DNA of 64,000 nt from Verrucomicrobium sp. (GTDB taxonomy: Bacteria > Verrucomicrobiota > Verrucomicrobiia > Methylacidiphilales > UBA1321), in the NCBI GenBank assembly GCA_017849585.1, contig JAFIGT010000013.1:62001-126000 (forward strand), given 5' to 3'. The notes beneath the pieces are model-generated. The model saw nothing but the letters and a program-made list of their open reading frames with translations. It had not been told where the DNA came from and ran no database searches. Numbering within the stretch: position 1 is the first letter of the stretch; each line of letters starts with the position of its first letter. Of the stretch, positions 5,979 to 27,533 are shown in pieces. The position numbers and the translations under genes are program-made.

Positions 5979-6884
5979 TCAAGCGTTTCTGGAATGCGCC
6001 AGCCAGTGCAGAATGCCCTTCTGGACATGCAACCGGTTCTCGGCCTGATCAAAAATATCCTCAGCACGAGACGTCATGATTTCTTCCGTGATCTCCTTGC
6101 CGCGATAGGCAGGCAGGCAGTGAAGAACCAACGCATCCTTGTGGGCGAGCGAGAGGAGCTTGGAATTGATCTGGTAACCGTTGAACGCCTTGATGCGCTC
6201 GGCGGCTTCCGCTTCCTTGCCCATGGAAATCCATACATCCGTGTAGAGCAAATCCGCATTGGCGGCCGCTTCCTCGGGTGAACGCACCTGTTTCACGTGC
6301 GCATTCGTCACCGAGCTTTCAAAACCTTCCGGCGCAGCAAGCACAAGATTGAACTTAAAGTATTCCGCTGCGTAAACCCACGAGCGCGCCACATTGCAGG
6401 CGGCGTCTCCAATGAAGGCCACCTTCTTGCCCACGATGGACCCACGCTTCTCTTCATACGTGAAGACGTCGGTTAAAATCTGGCAGGGATGCTCATCATC
6501 GGTCAACGCGTTGACGGTGGGAATCTTGGCATAGTTCGCAAAGTCCACCACGTCCTGCTGCGCGAAGGTACGAATCACCGCACCATGAACCATGCGGCCC
6601 AGTACGCGCGCCGTATCCGCGATCGGCTCGCCGCGACCGAGCTGGATGTCGTTCGCGTTGAGGAAAAGCGATTCACCACCGAGTTCGCGGATGCCGACTT
6701 CGAAGGAAACGCGAGTCCGCGTGGACGACTTGCTGAAAATCATCGCCCAAGTCTGCCCCTTCAGTGGCAGCTGTTCCGGGTTGCGACGATTCTTTTTATA
6801 CAACGCCGCCTCGGCGAAGATAGCCTTGGCTGCCCCCACAGGCAGACCCTGCATTCCCAACAGATGGATAGGACTCGTTTTCAA
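5979..6884 (-). CDS. argF: Ornithine carbamoyltransferase ArgF
   Basis: Carbamoylates ornithine to citrulline, the sixth step of arginine synthesis. The 301 residues carry the carbamoyl-phosphate motif SKSSTRTR near residue 52, the ornithine-binding HCLPAYRG near the C-terminus, and the DDEHPCQILTD segment that corresponds to the conserved HPxQ region. Length and domain order fit anabolic OTCases. An alternative would be an acetylornithine carbamoyltransferase, as in Xanthomonas and Bacteroides, but the presence of ArgJ in the same cluster, which makes free ornithine, supports ordinary OTCase. It lies 9 nt downstream of argD and 3 nt upstream of trmB in one strand-consistent cluster. Confidence 0.95.
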   Translation of the reverse strand: MKTSPIHLLGMQGLPVGAAKAIFAEAALYKKNRRNPEQLPLKGQTWAMIFSKSSTRTRVSFEVGIRELGGESLFLNANDIQLGRGEPIADTARVLGRMVHGAVIRTFAQQDVVDFANYAKIPTVNALTDDEHPCQILTDVFTYEEKRGSIVGKKVAFIGDAACNVARSWVYAAEYFKFNLVLAAPEGFESSVTNAHVKQVRSPEEAAANADLLYTDVWISMGKEAEAAERIKAFNGYQINSKLLSLAHKDALVLHCLPAYRGKEITEEIMTSRAEDIFDQAENRLHVQKGILHWLAHSRNA

Positions 6885-6893
6885 GGGGGTAGC

Positions 6894-8126
6894 CTACAGG
6901 TTTGCGGTCAAAATTCCAAGCGCTTCTTCCACTTCCGCGTCGCTCACATTATAGGGCGGCAGGAGGCGAATGACCTCTTCCCCTGCTGGAACAACGAGCA
7001 ACCCGGCTTCGCGCAACCGCGCCGTCACGTCCGCTGCGAGAGGCTTGACCTGCAATCCGAGCAATCCGCCAAAACCGCGCGCACTAATCAGGGTTTTTGC
7101 CCCCTTGGCTGCATGCGTATTCAATGCCGCCACAATCTTGTCGCCCTGCTTGCGGATATTCGCCACGAGATGTTCTCGCTCAATCACATCGAGCACGGTC
7201 AACGCCACCGCGCAGGCCAGCGGCGTGCCGCCGAAAGTGGTGCCATGCGTGCCGGGCTGGAACAAATCCGCCAGCGGCGTCTTGAGCCACACGGCGCCGA
7301 TGGGGAAACCGCCACCGAGCGATTTGGCAAAGGAAATGGCGTCCGGTTGGAAGCTCGCCGCTTGCGGGTGTCCTTCCAGAATGCGCTGGTAGCTGACAAA
7401 GGTGCCCGTGCGGAAAATGCCACACTGCACCGCGTCGATCACCAACAGGATATTCTTTTCCGTGCACAGCTTGCGCAAGCCTAGGAGATATTCCGGGCTG
7501 GCGATATTCACTCCGCTCTCACCTTGGATACACTCAATGAGCACCGCCGCGGTCGACGGAGTGATCGCCTCTTCGACCGCCTTCAGGTCATTGAATGGTA
7601 CATGCTTGAAACCGGGAATGATTGGCTCGAACCCCTTCTTGATCTTGTCCTGCCCCGTCGCCGCGATACCGCCGAGAGTGCGACCATGAAAAGATTTCAA
7701 TGCCGTGATCACCTCGTAGCGACCCGTATCGTGACCAAATTTGCGCGCAAGCTTATAGAGCATCTCGTTCGCCTCCGCGCCGCTGTTGCAAAAGAACACC
7801 TTGCCCGGCCCCACTTGCGCTGCAATTTTGTGCGCCAGTTCGCCCTGACCACGATGATAGTAGAGATTCGAAACGTGAATCAGTTTCTGCGATTGCTCCG
7901 TGAGCGCTTTCGTAATCGCCGGATGTGCATGACCGAGCGCATTGACCGCGATGCCGCCGCCGAAATCGAGATACCGCTTTCCACCGGCATCCCACACCTC
8001 CGTGCCCTTGCCTCGCTCCAGTACAATCGAACGCGCGTACGACGGCACGACGTACTTTTCGTACTCGCGCATGATCGCCTGCGCGGCGGGTTCCACCATG
8101 ACAACAGGGGCTAACGGGTCACTCAT
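6894..8126 (-). CDS. argD: Acetylornithine aminotransferase ArgD
   Basis: PLP-dependent class III aminotransferase that converts N-acetylglutamate semialdehyde to N-acetylornithine. The 410 residues show the PLP-phosphate region FCNSGAEANE, the Schiff-base lysine in ISFAKSLGGGFPIGA, and a C-terminal small domain ending in LLPPYNVSDAEVEEAL. The ATG at 8126 is preferred over an in-frame TTG at 8147, because GAAAG lies just upstream and the shorter N-terminus matches relatives. argB ends 23 nt before it and argF starts 9 nt after it. Related GABA or succinylornithine transaminases are the main alternative, but the arginine-gene context decides it. Confidence 0.95.
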   Translation of the reverse strand: MSDPLAPVVMVEPAAQAIMREYEKYVVPSYARSIVLERGKGTEVWDAGGKRYLDFGGGIAVNALGHAHPAITKALTEQSQKLIHVSNLYYHRGQGELAHKIAAQVGPGKVFFCNSGAEANEMLYKLARKFGHDTGRYEVITALKSFHGRTLGGIAATGQDKIKKGFEPIIPGFKHVPFNDLKAVEEAITPSTAAVLIECIQGESGVNIASPEYLLGLRKLCTEKNILLVIDAVQCGIFRTGTFVSYQRILEGHPQAASFQPDAISFAKSLGGGFPIGAVWLKTPLADLFQPGTHGTTFGGTPLACAVALTVLDVIEREHLVANIRKQGDKIVAALNTHAAKGAKTLISARGFGGLLGLQVKPLAADVTARLREAGLLVVPAGEEVIRLLPPYNVSDAEVEEALGILTANL

Positions 8127-8149
8127 AGGATACTTTCTATTACGCAAAG

Positions 8150-9019
8150 CTAGGCCGTAATTTCCGTGCCGACGCCAGCATCGGTGAACACTTCCAGTAG
8201 CAACGAATGCGCCATACGGCCATCGAGGAAGTGAACCTTCTTGACCCCGTGACGCAACGCTTCGATGGCAGAATCCACCTTCGGCAACATGCCGCCGTCG
8301 ATGATTCCCTGCTTCTTGAGCTCGTCGATCTCGGCAATGGTCAGCGTGGAAATCGTGGATTGCGGATCTTTGAAATCCCGCAACACACCGTTCACATCAG
8401 AGAGATAAATGATCTTGTCGGCCTTCAGCGCTTGGGCAATCTCGCCCGCTGCCACGTCGGCATTAATATTATACACGCGACCATCGCCGTCCCGAGCCAA
8501 GGGCGAGATGACCGGCATGACTTCCGCACGAACCGCGTCGCGCAAGGGCCCGGTGTCCACGCCGAGGATGTCGCCGACAAAACCGAGATCGACCGCTTCG
8601 CCAGTCTTGGCGAGACGATACTCCATCTTGCGCGCGATCAGCACTTCCTTGCCGGAAAAACCACGCGCCTTGCCGCCGAGCTTCTTGATCGCGTCGACAA
8701 TCCCTGGATTGATTTCACCGGAGAGCGTCTTTTCGATGACGTCCATCGATTCCGCATCGGAGACGCGCAAGCCGTCGATGAACTTCGCAACCACGCCCCG
8801 CTCCTTCATCGCGCGGGTGATCGCCTTGCCGCCACCATGGACGAGCACAGGGTTGATCCCCACCGCCTCGAGAAAGACCACGTCGCGCAGCACGCCTTCG
8901 ACCAACGCCTCGTTCTCCATCGCCGCACCGCCGTACTTGATGACGATGGTCTGCCCGCGAAATTGCTGAATATATGGCAACGCCTCAATGAGCGTTGCAG
9001 CCTTAAGATGTTCGTTCAT
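8150..9019 (-). CDS. argB: Acetylglutamate kinase ArgB
   Basis: Phosphorylates N-acetylglutamate, the second and usually arginine-inhibited step of the pathway. The 289 residues begin with a helix (ATLIEALPYIQQFRGQ) that in arginine-sensitive NAGKs is the extra N-terminal helix allowing hexamers, then show VIKYGGAAM and VLVHGGGKAIT (phosphate-binding glycine loops), and a C-terminal GGMLPK / HGVKKVHFLDG region. The N-terminal helix hints at feedback inhibition by arginine, as an inference. It is separated from upstream argJ by an AT-rich insertion holding a small membrane gene. Confidence 0.96.
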   Translation of the reverse strand: MNEHLKAATLIEALPYIQQFRGQTIVIKYGGAAMENEALVEGVLRDVVFLEAVGINPVLVHGGGKAITRAMKERGVVAKFIDGLRVSDAESMDVIEKTLSGEINPGIVDAIKKLGGKARGFSGKEVLIARKMEYRLAKTGEAVDLGFVGDILGVDTGPLRDAVRAEVMPVISPLARDGDGRVYNINADVAAGEIAQALKADKIIYLSDVNGVLRDFKDPQSTISTLTIAEIDELKKQGIIDGGMLPKVDSAIEALRHGVKKVHFLDGRMAHSLLLEVFTDAGVGTEITA

Positions 9020-9106
9020 GGGAAAGCGAAAAGTGTAAAACGATCTCGAAAATAAACAAGCCAGCGTTCTGTGACGATTAGCAGTGGAATGTAATCGCAG
9101 GCAGGC

Positions 9107-9385
9107 TCAAGCCTTATTGTTTTTTCTTCTTAACTTAAGAAGGTAAATAGCATTGCAAATCACAGGATAGGTCAGCCACGCCGCAGGGAAAATCCAGGAA
9201 ATCGTCCAAAATCGAAAAGTAAGATCCGCTATGAGAATCGTAAAGCCGTAGCCATACAATAAGGTCACCAGCACCGTATTCAGCCATATCCTCCAACGAG
9301 GCTCTGATGGCTTTGATGAATAAGTCCGATAATTGTAATATCCCCACCCCAGAATGCCCCATAGGAGCCAGATGATAATAGCCAT
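9107..9385 (-). CDS. Small AT-rich membrane protein inserted between argJ and argB
   Basis: 92 residues, start ATG 9385 (an in-frame TTG lies at 9397). About three hydrophobic stretches (residues ~3-20, 35-55 and 60-80) and a basic C-terminal tail (LKLRRKNNKA) suggest a small inner-membrane protein. I do not recognise it. Codon and base use are clearly more AT-rich than in the arginine genes on either side, and its upstream side carries a family A heptad repeat and the hairpin at the argJ stop. It looks like an acquired gene that landed inside the arginine operon; whether it is expressed from the operon is unknown. Confidence 0.55.
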   Translation of the reverse strand: MAIIIWLLWGILGWGYYNYRTYSSKPSEPRWRIWLNTVLVTLLYGYGFTILIADLTFRFWTISWIFPAAWLTYPVICNAIYLLKLRRKNNKA

Positions 9386-9421
9386 ACGGCGACTCAACTT
9401 CCAGGTCTGGCGTCAGCCAAC

Positions 9422-9449
9422 TTCGTACTTAGAACTGAATACCTAGAAC
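9422..9449. repeat. Heptad repeat, family A (copy 2)
   Basis: Four 7-nt units, TTCGTAC, TTAGAAC, TGAATAC and CTAGAAC, lie between the argJ-end hairpin and the small membrane gene at 9107-9385. The unit family is the same as before rlmN and after the pseudopilin. Confidence 0.75.
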
Positions 9450-9450
9450 T

Positions 9451-9471
9451 AACACGGCTTTCAGCCGTGTT
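9451..9471 (-). terminator. Hairpin at the argJ stop codon
   Basis: Perfect 9-bp stem AACACGGCT/AGCCGTGTT with a TTC loop, overlapping the TAA of argJ on the minus strand. There is no U tract after it, so it could be a pause site, an mRNA-stabilising hairpin or a Rho-type end rather than a strong intrinsic terminator. Confidence 0.5.
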
Positions 9472-10681
9472 ATTCACCCTTATTGAACGTGACGTACTTT
9501 TCCGTCAGGTCCGTCGTGAGCACGCTGTACTCGCCCGAGCCGAGATGCAGGTGCAGGGTGATCGTAAACGCGGGGCGTCGCACGATCTTGCGCAGCTTTG
9601 CCATCGGCGTGCGGCTCGCTTCGCCGTTGGAAACCGCGACGAGACCGTCGTAGTAAATCTCCACCATCTCCTCTTTCACACGAGCGCCGGAATAACCGAT
9701 CGCATCCATGAGACGGCCCCAATTCGGATCGCCACCGCACCACGAGCACTTCACCAGCGCCGAGTGCGCCACCGCGAGAGCCGCGAGCTTGGCGTCGGCG
9801 TTGCTCGCCGCGCCCTTGACGTTTACTTCCACCACGCGCGAAATGCCTTCGCCGTCCTGCACAATCATGCGGGCGAGTTTGCGCATCACCGTCACCAAGG
9901 CTTTTTGAAAAACACCGAGTTGCGGGTGATAGCTTTTGATCAGCGGGTTTTCCGCCATGCCGTTGGCCAGCACCATCACGGTGTCATTGGTCGATGTATC
10001 GCCATCAATGGTGATGCGATTGAAGGAATGCTCCACAGCCTCGTACGTGCATTTGCGCAGCGTGGCCTTGTCGATATTCGCGTCCGTCGTAATCACGCAC
10101 AACATCGTCGCCATCTGCGGGTGAATCATCCCGGCGCCCTTGGCCATGCCACCGATGGTCACCTTGCGACCGTCGATTTCCACACACACGGCAAATTCCT
10201 TGCGGAAAGTGTCGGACGTCATGATCGCTTTCGCAGCATCCGCGCCACCGTCCACGTTCAGTTTCGAGACAGTCCGCTTGATCCCACGCTCAATCTTCGG
10301 CATCGGCAATTGCACCCCGATACGGCCCGTGGAGCACACGAGAATTTCCTTCGGTCTGCAATCGAGCGCTTTCGCCGTCTTCTCCACCATGCTCTTCGCG
10401 TTCTTGATGCCAAGCACGCCGGTGCACGCATTGGCATTGCCCGAGTTCAACACGACGCCGCGCACGGAACCATTACGCGCGTGTTCAAAGGAGACTTTTA
10501 CCGGGGCGGCCTTGACCAGATTCGTTGTGAAGGTGGCACCGATTTGCGCCGGCACAGCCGAGTAAACAATGGCGAGATCCTTTTTGCCGGCAGGCTTGAT
10601 ACCCGAGGAGATGCCCGCCGCCACAAAACCCTGGGCGCTCGTCACACCGCCGTTTTTAATTACTTTATAGTCGTCTTTCAT
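9470..10681 (-). CDS. argJ: Bifunctional glutamate N-acetyltransferase/ornithine acetyltransferase ArgJ
   Basis: Transfers acetyl from N-acetylornithine to glutamate, and in bifunctional forms also from acetyl-CoA, allowing a cyclic arginine pathway. The 403 residues show GNANACTG, the autoproteolysis region KGAGMIHPQMATML (cleavage between Ala and Thr, Thr becoming the nucleophile of the beta chain) and DGDTSTNDTVM. The start overlaps the argC stop by ATGA, which implies translational coupling. Whether it is mono- or bifunctional cannot be read directly, but no argA is seen in the window. Downstream is a hairpin and then an AT-rich gene that separates it from argB. Confidence 0.95.
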   Translation of the reverse strand: MKDDYKVIKNGGVTSAQGFVAAGISSGIKPAGKKDLAIVYSAVPAQIGATFTTNLVKAAPVKVSFEHARNGSVRGVVLNSGNANACTGVLGIKNAKSMVEKTAKALDCRPKEILVCSTGRIGVQLPMPKIERGIKRTVSKLNVDGGADAAKAIMTSDTFRKEFAVCVEIDGRKVTIGGMAKGAGMIHPQMATMLCVITTDANIDKATLRKCTYEAVEHSFNRITIDGDTSTNDTVMVLANGMAENPLIKSYHPQLGVFQKALVTVMRKLARMIVQDGEGISRVVEVNVKGAASNADAKLAALAVAHSALVKCSWCGGDPNWGRLMDAIGYSGARVKEEMVEIYYDGLVAVSNGEASRTPMAKLRKIVRRPAFTITLHLHLGSGEYSVLTTDLTEKYVTFNKGE

Positions 10682-11712
10682 GCTCCCAACCCCATAGTTT
10701 CTTCGAACCCAAACCGCACGTTCAAGGCTTGGACCGCTTGCGCAGCAGCCCCCTTGCCAAGGTTATCAATCGCGGAAAAGAGAAGGAGCCGCCCGGTCCG
10801 CGCATCGAGCCGGGTGGCGATTTCAATCAGGTTGGAGCGCACGACACGCTTCACTTCAGGTAAGGTGCCATCGGTCTTCAGCGCCACGAACGGCTCGTCC
10901 GCATAATATTTCGCGTAGAGCGATTCCACCTCTTTATCGGCGAGAGAACGGGTGACCTTCGCCGAGATGGTCGTGATCATGCCACGTGTGAGAGGCACCA
11001 GATGCGGAATGAATGTCACCACGACATTCTGCGCGGCAAGGAGTGAAAGCTCCTGTTCGATTTCACTCAGATGCCGGTGCTTCGGCACGCTGTAGGCCTT
11101 CATGCTCTCGTTGAGCTCAGCAAAGAGGAGACTAACGTCCGCCTTCTTGCCCGCACCGGAAACGCCGCTGAGCGAATTAATGACGATGCTCCCCGGATCA
11201 ATCAAACCGTTCTTTAGCGCCGGAGCGAGCGCCAGCAGGATGCTCGTCGGATAGCAACCGGGGCAGGCGACAAGATCGGTTTTCTTGATGGCGTCGCGAT
11301 GCAATTCCGGTAACGCATAGACGGACTCCTTCAGGAGTTCAGGCGCGGGATGATCGTGACCGTAGAATTCTTTATAAATCTCGGGACTCTTCAGCCGGAA
11401 ATCGGCACTGAGGTCAATGACCACCTTGCCTGCTTTGCGCAGAGGCACCGCGTATTCGGCGGCCACACCATGCGGCAGGGCGAGGAAAAAAGCATCCGCA
11501 TGACCCGCCAGATCTGCGGGTGCAATGTCGGCAAAAGTGAGCTTTTCCAGCGAGGCGGGAAGTCCCGGGATGACACTGCCCACCGGTCGCCCCGCTGAAG
11601 AGCGGGACGTGATGGCAGTGAGTTGTAGCTCGGGATGCCGGGAGACAAGGCGGACCAATTCTTCACCGGAGTAGCCCGAGGCACCAACCACGGCAATGCG
11701 TAGTGTTGGCAT
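10678..11712 (-). CDS. argC: N-acetyl-gamma-glutamyl-phosphate reductase ArgC
   Basis: NADPH-dependent reduction of N-acetylglutamyl phosphate to the semialdehyde, the third step. The 344 residues begin with the Rossmann motif VVGASGYSGEEL, and carry the catalytic cysteine in VACPGCYPTS and the conserved SGVSGAGKK region, with HRHLSEIEQEL further on. This is the long (type 1) ArgC. It starts 36 nt after the rpsI stop with no visible terminator between, so read-through from the ribosomal protein genes into the arginine genes is plausible. It overlaps argJ by 4 nt. Confidence 0.96.
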   Translation of the reverse strand: MPTLRIAVVGASGYSGEELVRLVSRHPELQLTAITSRSSAGRPVGSVIPGLPASLEKLTFADIAPADLAGHADAFFLALPHGVAAEYAVPLRKAGKVVIDLSADFRLKSPEIYKEFYGHDHPAPELLKESVYALPELHRDAIKKTDLVACPGCYPTSILLALAPALKNGLIDPGSIVINSLSGVSGAGKKADVSLLFAELNESMKAYSVPKHRHLSEIEQELSLLAAQNVVVTFIPHLVPLTRGMITTISAKVTRSLADKEVESLYAKYYADEPFVALKTDGTLPEVKRVVRSNLIEIATRLDARTGRLLLFSAIDNLGKGAAAQAVQALNVRFGFEETMGLGA

Positions 11713-23291: not shown

Positions 23292-24440
23292 CTATGGCGT
23301 TCCCGCCGGCAGCATCCGCACGCGACGCTCCGCCAGCGGCAACACAATCCGCGCCGTCGTCCCGCGACCGGGATCGCTCTCCAGAATCAAATCGCCTCCA
23401 TGCTCGCGCACGATCCGGCGGATGATGAAAAGCCCCAGCCCGCTCCCACCGTCCTTGGTCGTAAAGTACGGCTCAAAAATTCGACTCACGTTTTCCGGCG
23501 CGATCCCGCAGCCATTATCGATGAACGAAATCAGCAGGTGCGTATCATTGCGTTCCGTGCGCACCCGCAGAATGCCCCCCACCGACATCGCCTGAATGGA
23601 ATTCTTGATCAGGTTATAAATCGCCTGCTTCATCTGCCCGGCATCCAGCGGCACCAATGGCAGATCCTTGGCCAACTCCGTCTCGACCAGAATATCGCGA
23701 TCGGCAATCTCCGGCCGCAGAAAGTCGATCGACTCCCGCACCAGATCATTCACCTGCACCGGCTTTCGATCCGGCTGTCCCGGCCGCACCGCGCGCAAAA
23801 ATTGATTGATGATATTATCCAGCCGCGTGATCTCCGCCTGCGCCACGCGCACCGAATCCACCAGCCGACCACCCTTCGCGCCCTCGATCTTTTTCAGATC
23901 ACGTTCCAACAATTGCAAATGAATGTGCAGCGAATTCAGGGGATTGCCCAACTCATGAGCCACACCCGCCGCCAGCAATGTCAACGCATTCACCTTCTCC
24001 GATTCGATCACCTCGCGCGTGCGCTGGCGTGTCGCCGTGATATCGTGAAAAATCAGCGCGTAACCCATGAACTCCTGCCCCGGCTCCTCCAACGGCACGA
24101 GATAGAAATTCAGAAAGCGCATGTCCGGGTAATAGACCTCCAGATCGCGGCTCACCACCCGCCGCTCGCGCAAAATCTTCTTCCAATCCAGCTCCTTCAA
24201 ATATTCCGCGATCCCATGCCCGAGCGCATTGTCCGGCAACCCGATCAACCGCTGGATGCTCGGATTGAAGTAGAGCACCTTGCCCGTCGCATCGATGACC
24301 AGCACGCCTTCTTGCAGCGTGTTGAAAATCACTTCAAGAAAACCCTTCTCCCGTGCCAACTGTTGCAAATACGTCTGCAGTTCGTCCGGCGAGACATGCT
24401 CGATCCGGTCGAGAAGCTTGGCGAGGAAAGACGGTTTCAT
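23292..24440 (-). CDS. Cytoplasmic PAS-domain histidine kinase
   Basis: 382 residues, no membrane segment. A PAS domain (residues ~30-135, LQEGVLVIDATGKVLYFN), the HisKA box LAAGVAHELGNPLNS with His162, and a HATPase domain with the N box (MKQAIYNLIKNSIQAM), DNGCGIAPEN and GLGLFIIRR. Closest in style to NtrB-like kinases that partner NtrC-type regulators, and the next gene downstream is such a regulator, 149 nt away across a heptad-repeat hairpin. The PAS domain suggests it senses a cytoplasmic cue. ATG 24440 chosen; the preceding codons in frame lack family character. Confidence 0.95.
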   Translation of the reverse strand: MKPSFLAKLLDRIEHVSPDELQTYLQQLAREKGFLEVIFNTLQEGVLVIDATGKVLYFNPSIQRLIGLPDNALGHGIAEYLKELDWKKILRERRVVSRDLEVYYPDMRFLNFYLVPLEEPGQEFMGYALIFHDITATRQRTREVIESEKVNALTLLAAGVAHELGNPLNSLHIHLQLLERDLKKIEGAKGGRLVDSVRVAQAEITRLDNIINQFLRAVRPGQPDRKPVQVNDLVRESIDFLRPEIADRDILVETELAKDLPLVPLDAGQMKQAIYNLIKNSIQAMSVGGILRVRTERNDTHLLISFIDNGCGIAPENVSRIFEPYFTTKDGGSGLGLFIIRRIVREHGGDLILESDPGRGTTARIVLPLAERRVRMLPAGTP

Positions 24441-24495
24441 GCGGGGCTCAGAGGACAGAATATTTACCAATCCCCTGCGCACCTAGCAAGAGCCG

Positions 24496-26250
24496 TCATG
24501 AACGAACGTGCGTGGGCCGGGGCGAGCCGTCGAGGGACAGCCGCCAGAGCGAAGCCCCGGCTTCGTCGGCCAGGAAAGAGAATCCCAGGCGTTCATACAA
24601 TTTTGCCACGAGATTGTTTTTGGGAAGAGGAACGTAGCGACCGAGGACGGAGACGCATCCGAGACGCTGGCCAAGGACCATGATGTCGTTGAGGATGAAT
24701 TCTTCCATGGTTCGCGCGAGGACACGACAGCTCATGGCCCAAGTATCAATGCGGAGATCTCCACCGGGATTACCATTCAGGACAAGCGCAGCGATAAGAC
24801 CGTTATCCCCGAAGCGATCACGTAGCTTGAAGTGGCGGATGTGATAGTTGGGCCGAGCCACGATTTCCTGTAGTTCCGCTTCCGAATAGCGGGTACCGGT
24901 GAGATGGAATTGGTTGCTTTTGTTGATGAGCTGCGCGACACGGGGAAGATGAAAAGCATCGAGGCTGCCGGCTTCGCCGATCATCGCGAGCGATTCCAAA
25001 TACGCATTGATGTCGGTAAAGCCGCTCTGGAGATCCGCACGGGCGGCGTTTTCGCGGTAGTAGCGGGCGCGTTGACGGTCTTCATCGGAGAACGCCACGG
25101 TTTCGAAATAGCATCCCTCAGCCACAGCCGTTTTATATTCGGCGGGGTCGGCGGGCAATTCCGGCACGGCGACCATGGGCAGGAGTTCGCGAACGAGATT
25201 CCGTTCGACCGGATTGTCATCGACAAAGACGATCGAATCGAGGCCAATATTGAGAGTCGCGGCAATGGCGCGGAGGTTGTCGGCTTTATTCCCCCAATTC
25301 GCCCGGAAGACGCTGATGTCTTCGAGCTTCAAGACGCAATCCGGATGTTGGAGAAAGGGCTCCTTTGCGTTGGCCTCGTCATTCTTCGAACAGACAGCGA
25401 GAAGAATGCCGCGTTCTTTCAGCGAGCGGAGATACCGCTGAAAATCGACAAAAGACTCACCCTCGGCATCGCCACCGAGCTTGATGCCGGAGAGACCGTC
25501 GTCGCCTATGACGCCGCCCCAGAGTGTATTGTCGAGATCGAGGACAAGACATTTCCGGGCACCACCTCTCGATGCCACCATGACACGCGCCGCCTGAAAG
25601 GCGACAAGGCCGTAGGCGTCAAAATGAAACGGGTTTTTCGAGTGGTGCCAGGAGCGGTTGTCCATCCAACGTTTTTTGCCGAAGAGAGCGGAAAGGTGGT
25701 CGAGGTCGAAGATCAGAACGCCGGCGGGAGCTGCGAGAGCGAGTTCAAGGTTGTATCGGCGCAAAAAATTTCGCTCGCTCCCGGAGAGTTGCCCCCCGAA
25801 ATTGCCGAACGAATCGACCGGAGGAATATCGGCGTTATTGTGGAGGATGGTACAATTCAGCTCGGATTGGAGCACTTTCCAGAGTGCTGTTTTTTCCTGA
25901 ATGATCCCGGCGATTGCGTCCGGGGCTTCACCCTCCGCTCGAGTGCTCCATCGCGCATCGCGATGGGAGGTAAAGAGCCAGACGAGATCGGGCTTAAAGG
26001 TGTAAAGGACGCTGCCGCGATCGAGGATTGTGGAGGAAATTGTGTCGAAGGGCGCGATCCAAATTTTCGCGGCGTAACCTTCTTGCGCGAGCCAATACGT
26101 CAGAATTTCAGCGAAGGAATCAACAGTACTGGAGGCGAGAAGGGCGATCTTGATCGGCTTGAGGGATGGATCGGGATTTGTTTTGAGGGCGCGCGCACAA
26201 GCCTTTGCGGCTTTGAGCTGCAGGGTAAAATCGTCGTATGGAGTCAACAT
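24496..26250 (-). CDS. FkbH-like HAD-IIIC / GNAT fusion protein
   Basis: 584 residues. An SGNH-like N-terminal region (IKIALLASSTVDSF; residues 30-220), a HAD-IIIC phosphatase domain with LVLDLDNTLWGGVIGDD (DxDxT at 238-242) and FVDDNPVERN, then a GNAT-like acyltransferase domain (~430-584). In FkbH and relatives this type takes 1,3-bisphosphoglycerate, removes phosphate and loads a glyceryl unit on an acyl carrier protein. The gene upstream encodes exactly such a carrier domain at its N-terminus and overlaps this one by 7 nt, so the two probably work together. The final product is not predictable; related proteins serve polyketide starter units, methoxymalonyl-ACP, and cell-surface glycan modification. 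Confidence 0.9.
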   Translation of the reverse strand: MLTPYDDFTLQLKAAKACARALKTNPDPSLKPIKIALLASSTVDSFAEILTYWLAQEGYAAKIWIAPFDTISSTILDRGSVLYTFKPDLVWLFTSHRDARWSTRAEGEAPDAIAGIIQEKTALWKVLQSELNCTILHNNADIPPVDSFGNFGGQLSGSERNFLRRYNLELALAAPAGVLIFDLDHLSALFGKKRWMDNRSWHHSKNPFHFDAYGLVAFQAARVMVASRGGARKCLVLDLDNTLWGGVIGDDGLSGIKLGGDAEGESFVDFQRYLRSLKERGILLAVCSKNDEANAKEPFLQHPDCVLKLEDISVFRANWGNKADNLRAIAATLNIGLDSIVFVDDNPVERNLVRELLPMVAVPELPADPAEYKTAVAEGCYFETVAFSDEDRQRARYYRENAARADLQSGFTDINAYLESLAMIGEAGSLDAFHLPRVAQLINKSNQFHLTGTRYSEAELQEIVARPNYHIRHFKLRDRFGDNGLIAALVLNGNPGGDLRIDTWAMSCRVLARTMEEFILNDIMVLGQRLGCVSVLGRYVPLPKNNLVAKLYERLGFSFLADEAGASLWRLSLDGSPRPTHVRS

Positions 26251-27413
26251 GATCGATTTTTCGCGCGTTCCGTGAGGAGAAACGAAAAGAGTTTATCGGC
26301 ATTATGCGGGCCAATGTGAGCTCCATTTTTAAAATCCTCAGGATCACCCCGGAAACCTTCAACAAGCGTGCAGTCATGGAAAGTAACCGTTTCGGATTCG
26401 CAACGGCGCAGCAGCGTGACAAGCTCGTTGCGCCGTTGTTCGTAGACGGTGTTTTCAATGAGGAACCGATGCAGTTGGTGATGAATCGTGCCCAGAAAAA
26501 GGACAACCTCGATTTTGCGTTCACCACACAGGGCCAGAAACCGCTTTAAATAGTCAAAGCGTTGCGCACTGAGCCGGGTATAATTCTGCATCCGCATTCC
26601 ATACTGACTATTCCGGTCCGATCCGTCCGCAATGCGCAGGACATCGGTCCAGCGGTCGGCGTCATGGTAAAGAATGTCTCCAAATTCAGGAGCAAAGGTA
26701 TAGTTGAGAGTTTCGTTCAAGCCCCGGCGGAAAATGACGTCAAGTTGATGGCTTCGTTCCTCCCAAACGATCGTATTTTGCGGCGCGGGTGGGGAGTCCG
26801 ACGGCATATCAAGGAAAGGGCCAAGATCGGGCGACTCGAGCAGACTGGAAGATGGCGCCCAAGCCTTGGAGAAAGTCACAATATCGATTCCGAGAACAAC
26901 CGTACGGAGCGGGACATGATTATTTTCCAAGACGAAATTCAGGGCGCAAAAGGCATCCTCCGGCAAACCGGAATCAACGGAAAAATTGAACGAGCGATAA
27001 CCAAATCGCGTTGCCGTCCGCGAATGCAGATCGAAACATCCGCTCGGCCCCAGAACGAGAAGATCACAAGATCGGGAGGATGTCTTATAAAGATGCGCCT
27101 TGAGACTCCGGATTTCTTCCATCTGACGCAGGTCGAACGCTTGGGGTGAACTGACGGCGCCCCGGCGATTGTCGACCAGTCGGACGACGGAAGCTATCGT
27201 ATCGAAAACCTGGATATCCTTGATTTCATTCAACGCGAAGGATTGCCCCATTTCCTTTTCGAGAAAAACGATCCATTGCACGACCTGGAGCGAGTCGATC
27301 CAGCCATCGCGAAGAAGGTGCAAGTCATCAAGCCGTTGCCCCTCCAGATCGGGCAGCAGATCAAGAAGGGTTTGCGAGACAATCTGATGCGAGGAATACT
27401 GGGAGACGCTCAT
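26244..27413 (-). CDS. Acyl carrier protein domain fused to SGNH-like hydrolase/transferase domain
   Basis: 389 residues. Residues 1-85 form an acyl-carrier-like helical domain with RDGWIDSLQVVQW, where Ser41 is the likely phosphopantetheine site. The rest looks like an SGNH-type esterase/acyltransferase: a beta strand then LLVLGPSGCFD (Ser124 as block I nucleophile, with GPS instead of GDS), a central region with VVLGIDIVTFS, and a C-terminal D360...H366/H370 pair in DFKNGAHIGPH. Such a fusion is unusual and I do not know a named family with this architecture. Overlap with the FkbH-like gene by 7 nt indicates translational coupling. A role as carrier plus transferase putting an acyl or glyceryl group on an envelope polymer is an inference. 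Confidence 0.75.
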   Translation of the reverse strand: MSVSQYSSHQIVSQTLLDLLPDLEGQRLDDLHLLRDGWIDSLQVVQWIVFLEKEMGQSFALNEIKDIQVFDTIASVVRLVDNRRGAVSSPQAFDLRQMEEIRSLKAHLYKTSSRSCDLLVLGPSGCFDLHSRTATRFGYRSFNFSVDSGLPEDAFCALNFVLENNHVPLRTVVLGIDIVTFSKAWAPSSSLLESPDLGPFLDMPSDSPPAPQNTIVWEERSHQLDVIFRRGLNETLNYTFAPEFGDILYHDADRWTDVLRIADGSDRNSQYGMRMQNYTRLSAQRFDYLKRFLALCGERKIEVVLFLGTIHHQLHRFLIENTVYEQRRNELVTLLRRCESETVTFHDCTLVEGFRGDPEDFKNGAHIGPHNADKLFSFLLTERAKNRSC

Positions 27414-27533
27414 GGCAAAGCGGCTCAGGCCGGAGCGCGATACGGGCGGGTTGTGGAAAAAATGGTCATTTAAAGGCCATCGGAAGAATCGATGCGCCTC
27501 TTGACCCCTAAGTTTTGACGACAGGAGACGATG

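Follow-up and report, generated by a model that had tools for sequence, protein, structure and literature searches.

What reaction is carried out by two overlapping genes, one of which joins an acyl-carrier domain to an SGNH domain in a single polypeptide while the other encodes an FkbH-type enzyme, and where would the product go? The pair lies in a 64-kb stretch of DNA from a Verrucomicrobiota bacterium (the window, to whose whole length all coordinates refer). The gene for the ACP-SGNH fusion (26244-27413, minus strand; an ORF of 389 amino acids without a transmembrane helix) and that for the FkbH protein (24496-26250, minus strand; an ORF of 584 amino acids) share 7 bp (26244-26250) on the same strand, confirming the overlap described in an earlier note on this DNA. 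The note had assigned carrier, SGNH and FkbH domains to the pair and had suggested transfer of a group to an exported polymer. As described below, all three domains were borne out by profile or alignment matches, and the SGNH domain also by a structural model; the polymer did not fare as well.

Enzymes of the FkbH family charge a carrier with glyceryl, which they draw from 1,3-bisphosphoglycerate. The protein encoded at 24496-26250 matched TIGR01686 at 295 bits, well over the cut-off of 147, in line with the FkbH type claimed for it. Specifically, an FkbH_N domain (PF21211, 40.7 bits, cut-off 27) covers residues 34-218 (25597-26151, minus strand), and the catalytic part detected by TIGR01686 covers residues 231-559 (24574-25560, minus strand). 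The latter holds the HAD DxD aspartates in the motif DLDNTLW (Asp238 and Asp240) and a C-terminal Cys508, and all three residues are invariant in four aligned relatives. Judged by its sequence, the protein is a true member of the FkbH family, and it is the only one in the genome. The nearest FkbH proteins among the matches listed, with 50-56% identity, come from Pseudomonadota, Elusimicrobiota and Omnitrophota, and in the FkbH tree the window protein falls within this group (starred sets of 5 and 8 rows). Glyceryl would be the substrate here if the enzyme behaves as its family does.

The carrier domain of the fusion (residues 1-85; 27159-27413, minus strand) is less conspicuous. The fusion ORF was the sole match in the whole window (E = 5.6e-5) to a carrier HMM made from the carriers of other FkbH loci, with the window sequence left out. 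The domain also matched NCBIfam carrier models with E values of 0.007-0.025, under the NCBIfam cut-offs, and its best solved structure was DltC (E = 0.012), while no Pfam PP-binding match was found in it. On these profile matches we regard the carrier assignment as weak but real. The predicted phosphopantetheine site, Ser41 (27291-27293, minus strand), to which the earlier note had drawn attention, lies in WIDSL, within the D-S motif that is invariant in 18 related carriers. A single-sequence AlphaFold model of the full fusion was of low confidence (pLDDT 34) and placed helices in the carrier at residues 8-18, 41-55 and 70-81. Note that the domain shares only 14-23% identity with sampled carriers of FkbH cassettes and thus belongs to another subtype than is usual there, its nearest kin being an unrelated carrier in L014. 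Given this unusual subtype, loading by the neighbouring FkbH is uncertain; the gene overlap and the known activity of the family suggest that it would occur.

The C-terminal part of the fusion (residues ~111-389; 26247-27083, minus strand) was aligned by hhalign with a profile of 20 SGNH proteins at a probability of 96.7 (E = 3.5e-10). AlphaFold, run on a 21-row alignment, gave a model with pLDDT 72.8 and pTM 0.74, in which the core was well predicted and a loose insertion spans roughly residues 188-253; because this alignment was made up of SGNH proteins, the model depends in part on the sequence evidence. Foldseek matched the model to DltD, PatB and GDSL enzymes, and VIA-align gave Z scores of 14-15 with OatA, PatB, TesA and PAF acetylhydrolase, so the proposal that this part folds as an SGNH domain is upheld by both alignment and model. 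A catalytic triad of Ser124, Asp360 and a His had been predicted, of which two members stood. Ser124, the block I nucleophile in LGPSG (27042-27044, minus strand), and His366, the block V base in NGAH (26316-26318, minus strand), are invariant in 21 SGNH sequences, as is Gly122. The domain thus combines an SGNH fold with the block I Ser and the block V His expected of the superfamily. Asp360, on the other hand, falls outside the position of the catalytic Asp in the alignment. Block V calls for an Asp three residues before the His, and the alignment places Asn363 there (26325-26327, minus strand), which may lower the activity of the domain. Asn occupies this position also in L138, L140, L044 and L093, and three of these four relatives (L044, L093 and L140) adjoin an MBOAT gene.

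By sequence, the kin of the SGNH domain act as partners in MBOAT transfer systems, and the fusion scored 21.4 bits against DUF1574 (PF07611), below the gathering cut-off of 29.1. The fusion differs from these relatives in its relation to the membrane. Hydropathy revealed no transmembrane stretch in it (maximum, 1.35), whereas each of seven SGNH relatives has a hydrophobic N-terminal stretch (maxima, 1.7-2.7).

How unusual is the fusion? Among the best 80 FkbH loci of a genome-contig scan, which cover many phyla and some of which end early, a carrier was present in at least 71 and an MBOAT in at least 48, and 65 of 74 carriers were located within 600 bp of FkbH. In none of the 71 carrier-holding loci did more than 15 residues follow the carrier domain. 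An ortholog of the fusion was likewise not found in genome contigs, plasmids, 62 order-level and 388 phylum-level genomes, where a single carrier-only match appeared. The fusion is therefore known from one genome among those searched, and its description as unusual holds for the 80 FkbH loci, the 388 sampled genomes of the phylum and the plasmids alike. We also considered whether the fusion is an artefact in which a stop codon dividing a carrier gene from the gene for an anchored SGNH protein had been missed. This is unlikely because the interval from the carrier to block I is only ~33 residues long and the protein has no transmembrane stretch anywhere.

The ordinary arrangement in the survey was FkbH-ACP-MBOAT, often with a membrane-anchored SGNH protein. 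In three related genomes (L010:1-4083, L011:1-4558 and L012:7998-12540), for instance, FkbH lies ahead of genes for a standalone ACP, an SGNH protein and an MBOAT. Cassettes with an anchored SGNH protein (L010, L011, L012, L044, L085, L093 and L094) share FkbH, carrier and SGNH with the window pair. However, in these cassettes the carrier is standalone, the SGNH protein is anchored by a hydrophobic N-terminus and there is an MBOAT gene, whereas the window has one soluble fusion and no MBOAT was found. In the group with the nearest FkbH proteins, most members have genes for an ACP, an MBOAT, a MaoC and a radical SAM protein in the vicinity; of these, the MaoC, radical SAM and MBOAT genes are missing beside the window pair.

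Two further FkbH arrangements were observed. In L015-L022, the nearest FkbH kin from several phyla, a MaoC-like gene, a B12-type radical SAM gene and a DltB-like MBOAT gene adjoin FkbH; the best NCBIfam match of the radical SAM protein was the PhpK methyltransferase family, under the cut-off. This arrangement has the look of a cassette that is spreading and that serves an acyl group altered by methylation or in some other way. In L143:7155-11967, L144:7124-11519 and L146:3870-8332, all from the phylum of the window, FkbH occurs with a FabH-like protein, a NeuD-like sugar acyltransferase and either one carrier or two, with no MBOAT. The combination of FkbH, carriers and a FabH-like protein in these loci suggests that the carrier-bound products are used in several ways.

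We then compared the locus with those of relatives. In the same-genus genome G039 (L134), whose flanks are ~85-95% identical to those of the window, a gap of ~55 bp between the kinase gene and corA takes the place of a segment of ~3.1 kb (24442-27533) that holds the pair in the window, and no FkbH match was found in that genome. The corA and kinase genes are adjacent without the pair in two further genomes of the family as well (L135 and L136). Because these three genomes have corA and the kinase gene side by side, the FkbH/fusion pair is best read, from gene order, as an insertion. Third-position GC is 0.57 in the fusion gene as against 0.59-0.83 in the surrounding genes. The start of the kinase gene (23292-24482) is probably an ATG near 24440, not the GTG at 24482, since similarity to the same-genus genome ends there. 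Elsewhere in the window, 5979-11712 holds an ordinary arginine biosynthesis run (argC, argJ, argB, argD and argF, by Pfam).

This comparison bears directly on the suggestion of polymer modification. The earlier note was right about the position of the export genes, and genes for Wza, Wzc and a membrane glycosyltransferase-like protein do lie downstream on the strand of the pair. The argument drawn from this context was not supported: corA and the kinase gene are adjacent without the pair in all three relatives, so that the pair is no conserved part of the kinase/export locus. By this comparison, the genes for the kinase, the sigma-54 regulator and Wza/Wzc were in place before the pair and form no conserved unit with it. 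Their link to it is thus one of position, which weakens the polymer-modification reading, and transfer to an exported polymer is weakened further by the fusion having no membrane helix and the genome no MBOAT match.

Potential partners were sought in the rest of the genome. No MBOAT (PF03062) match was found in the assembly, which is MAG-like and 96% complete and could miss one; the claim that the pair has no MBOAT partner therefore extends from the locus to the whole assembly. A phosphopantetheinyl transferase, for which the earlier note had proposed a search, is represented by two matches. Two AT3 acyltransferases, both unlinked to the pair, were also detected and may provide export by another route. 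Among the features of a Dlt-type or MBOAT-SGNH system, a DltB-like MBOAT is thus absent from the genome assembly, and a membrane-anchored extracytoplasmic SGNH from the fusion.

Our leading interpretation, held at slightly less than even confidence, is that the pair is a horizontally acquired, MBOAT-free cassette in which the fused carrier is charged with glyceryl by FkbH and discharged by the SGNH domain onto an acceptor in the cytosol. In this scheme, one of the phosphopantetheinyl transferases of the genome would first arm Ser41. FkbH would then take glyceryl from 1,3-bisphosphoglycerate, remove the phosphate and form glyceryl-S-ACP. Next, the carrier would swing the glyceryl group over to Ser124 in the SGNH domain of the same polypeptide, where His366 would act as the base. 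Finally, the SGNH domain would deliver the group to an acceptor in the cytosol, at either a hydroxyl or an amine; candidate acceptors include small metabolites, nucleotide sugars and lipid-linked sugars at the inner face of the membrane. Given that there is neither an MBOAT nor an anchor, cytosolic loading, transfer to Ser124 and delivery make up the simplest reading. The reaction is probably cytosolic, and a cytosolic acceptor is more likely than an exported polymer; transfer would then take place in cis. In favour of the cassette we count the FkbH membership, the gene overlap, the ACP in at least 71 of 80 loci, the invariant Ser124 and His366, and the SGNH fold, together with the SGNH proteins of the same kind in FkbH-ACP-MBOAT cassettes, the two phosphopantetheinyl transferases, and the absence of a helix and of an MBOAT. 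Counted against it are the carrier subtype, the Asn in place of the catalytic Asp, a fusion without ortholog, the two AT3 proteins and a possibly missed MBOAT.

The structural model lends itself to a different use of the SGNH domain, namely as a built-in TesA-like thioesterase that hydrolyses the loaded carrier and so frees glycerate or clears a mis-charged carrier. The model is as close to E. coli thioesterase I (TesA) as to PatB and OatA (Z 14.2-14.8), and fused thioesterases are common beside carrier domains in assembly lines. However, the sequence kin of the domain are partners in MBOAT transfer systems and not thioesterases, and there is no evident gain from spending a glycolytic intermediate on free glycerate. 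We consider hydrolysis unlikely, and it is one of the two main rivals of the cassette.

The other main rival, to which we also assign a low probability, turns on Asn363. If the missing block V Asp has left the SGNH domain weak or dead, the domain could be a scaffold that docks FkbH, and the loaded carrier would be used in trans, for example by an acyltransferase or a FabH-like enzyme; L143, L144 and L146, from the same phylum, do pair FkbH and carriers with FabH-like proteins and without SGNH. Yet Gly122, Ser124 and His366 are all retained, other MBOAT-linked SGNH proteins have Asn at the same position, and the inserted segment holds no gene for a partner in trans.

Modification of a surface polymer has become quite improbable. 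The product would have to reach the glycan exported by Wza/Wzc either through an intracellular precursor or through an unlinked membrane acyltransferase. The two AT3 proteins could serve the latter, the SGNH kin act on surface polymers, and the Wza, Wzc and glycosyltransferase-like genes follow on the same strand; these neighbours are, however, conserved in relatives without the pair, and the fusion has no membrane anchor and the genome no MBOAT match. Finally, the pair could be what is left of a transferred cassette, in decay or no longer functional. This would fit a fusion in a single genome without the MaoC, radical SAM and MBOAT genes of the nearest FkbH kin, but is very unlikely, given that both frames are open, that the FkbH motif residues, Ser41, Ser124 and His366 are retained, and that a carrier of a different subtype suggests assembly, not decay.

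Returning to the cytosolic cassette, we compared it with known systems. In MBOAT-SGNH systems, a group crosses the membrane through the MBOAT, after which the SGNH Ser places it on the acceptor, and the Dlt system uses a carrier protein as donor (PMC12148441). Dlt D-alanylation (DltA, DltB, DltC, DltD and DltX) shares a carrier and an SGNH transferase with the window pair, and DltD and DltC are among its best structural and sequence matches; the pair, however, has no DltB and no membrane anchor, and the FkbH enzyme replaces the adenylating DltA. PatA/PatB and OatA of peptidoglycan O-acetylation share the SGNH fold, the block I Ser and the block V His, but act outside the membrane on acetyl groups with an MBOAT or AT3 partner, whereas the fusion is unanchored and has Asn for Asp. 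In tetronate and methoxymalonyl-ACP biosynthesis, glyceryl-ACP is formed by Mad7/Mad8 and Mad14/Mad12 (PMC7489565), where an FkbH-like enzyme and a carrier are encoded together as in the window; there, however, the standalone carrier feeds a polyketide pathway (a FabH-like enzyme or dehydrogenases) and no SGNH is involved. The flagellar glycosylation region of C. jejuni contains the FkbH-domain gene cj1302 (PMC7099621), and its flagellin carries a di-O-methylglyceric acid derivative of pseudaminic acid (PMC3958885). Like the window gene, cj1302 has no known MBOAT, a likeness drawn from text description only, and it may offer a precedent if it is linked to the glyceric-acid groups on flagellin sugars.

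In the open-access literature, which leaves most subscription journals outside its scope, FkbH and MBOAT were named together only in work on cyanobacterial peptides, and the combination of DltD, FkbH, SGNH and a fused carrier returned general SGNH papers only, which is weak evidence of novelty. FkbH-ACP-MBOAT cassettes, including L010, L011 and L012, are apparently not described in the open-access literature searched.

It is possible, although somewhat less likely than not, that the fusion represents a soluble carrier and SGNH transferase in which an SGNH domain of the MBOAT-fed kind has become cytosolic and is supplied by its own carrier, so that glyceryl reaches an acceptor by means of two proteins without crossing a membrane. 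If so, two proteins would suffice to turn a glycolytic intermediate into an ester or amide, a minimal route that needs no membranes, and an SGNH enzyme of the type that partners MBOATs would be able to take a group directly from a carrier protein. Beyond this organism, FkbH-ACP-MBOAT cassettes appear to make up a wide class that extends across many phyla.
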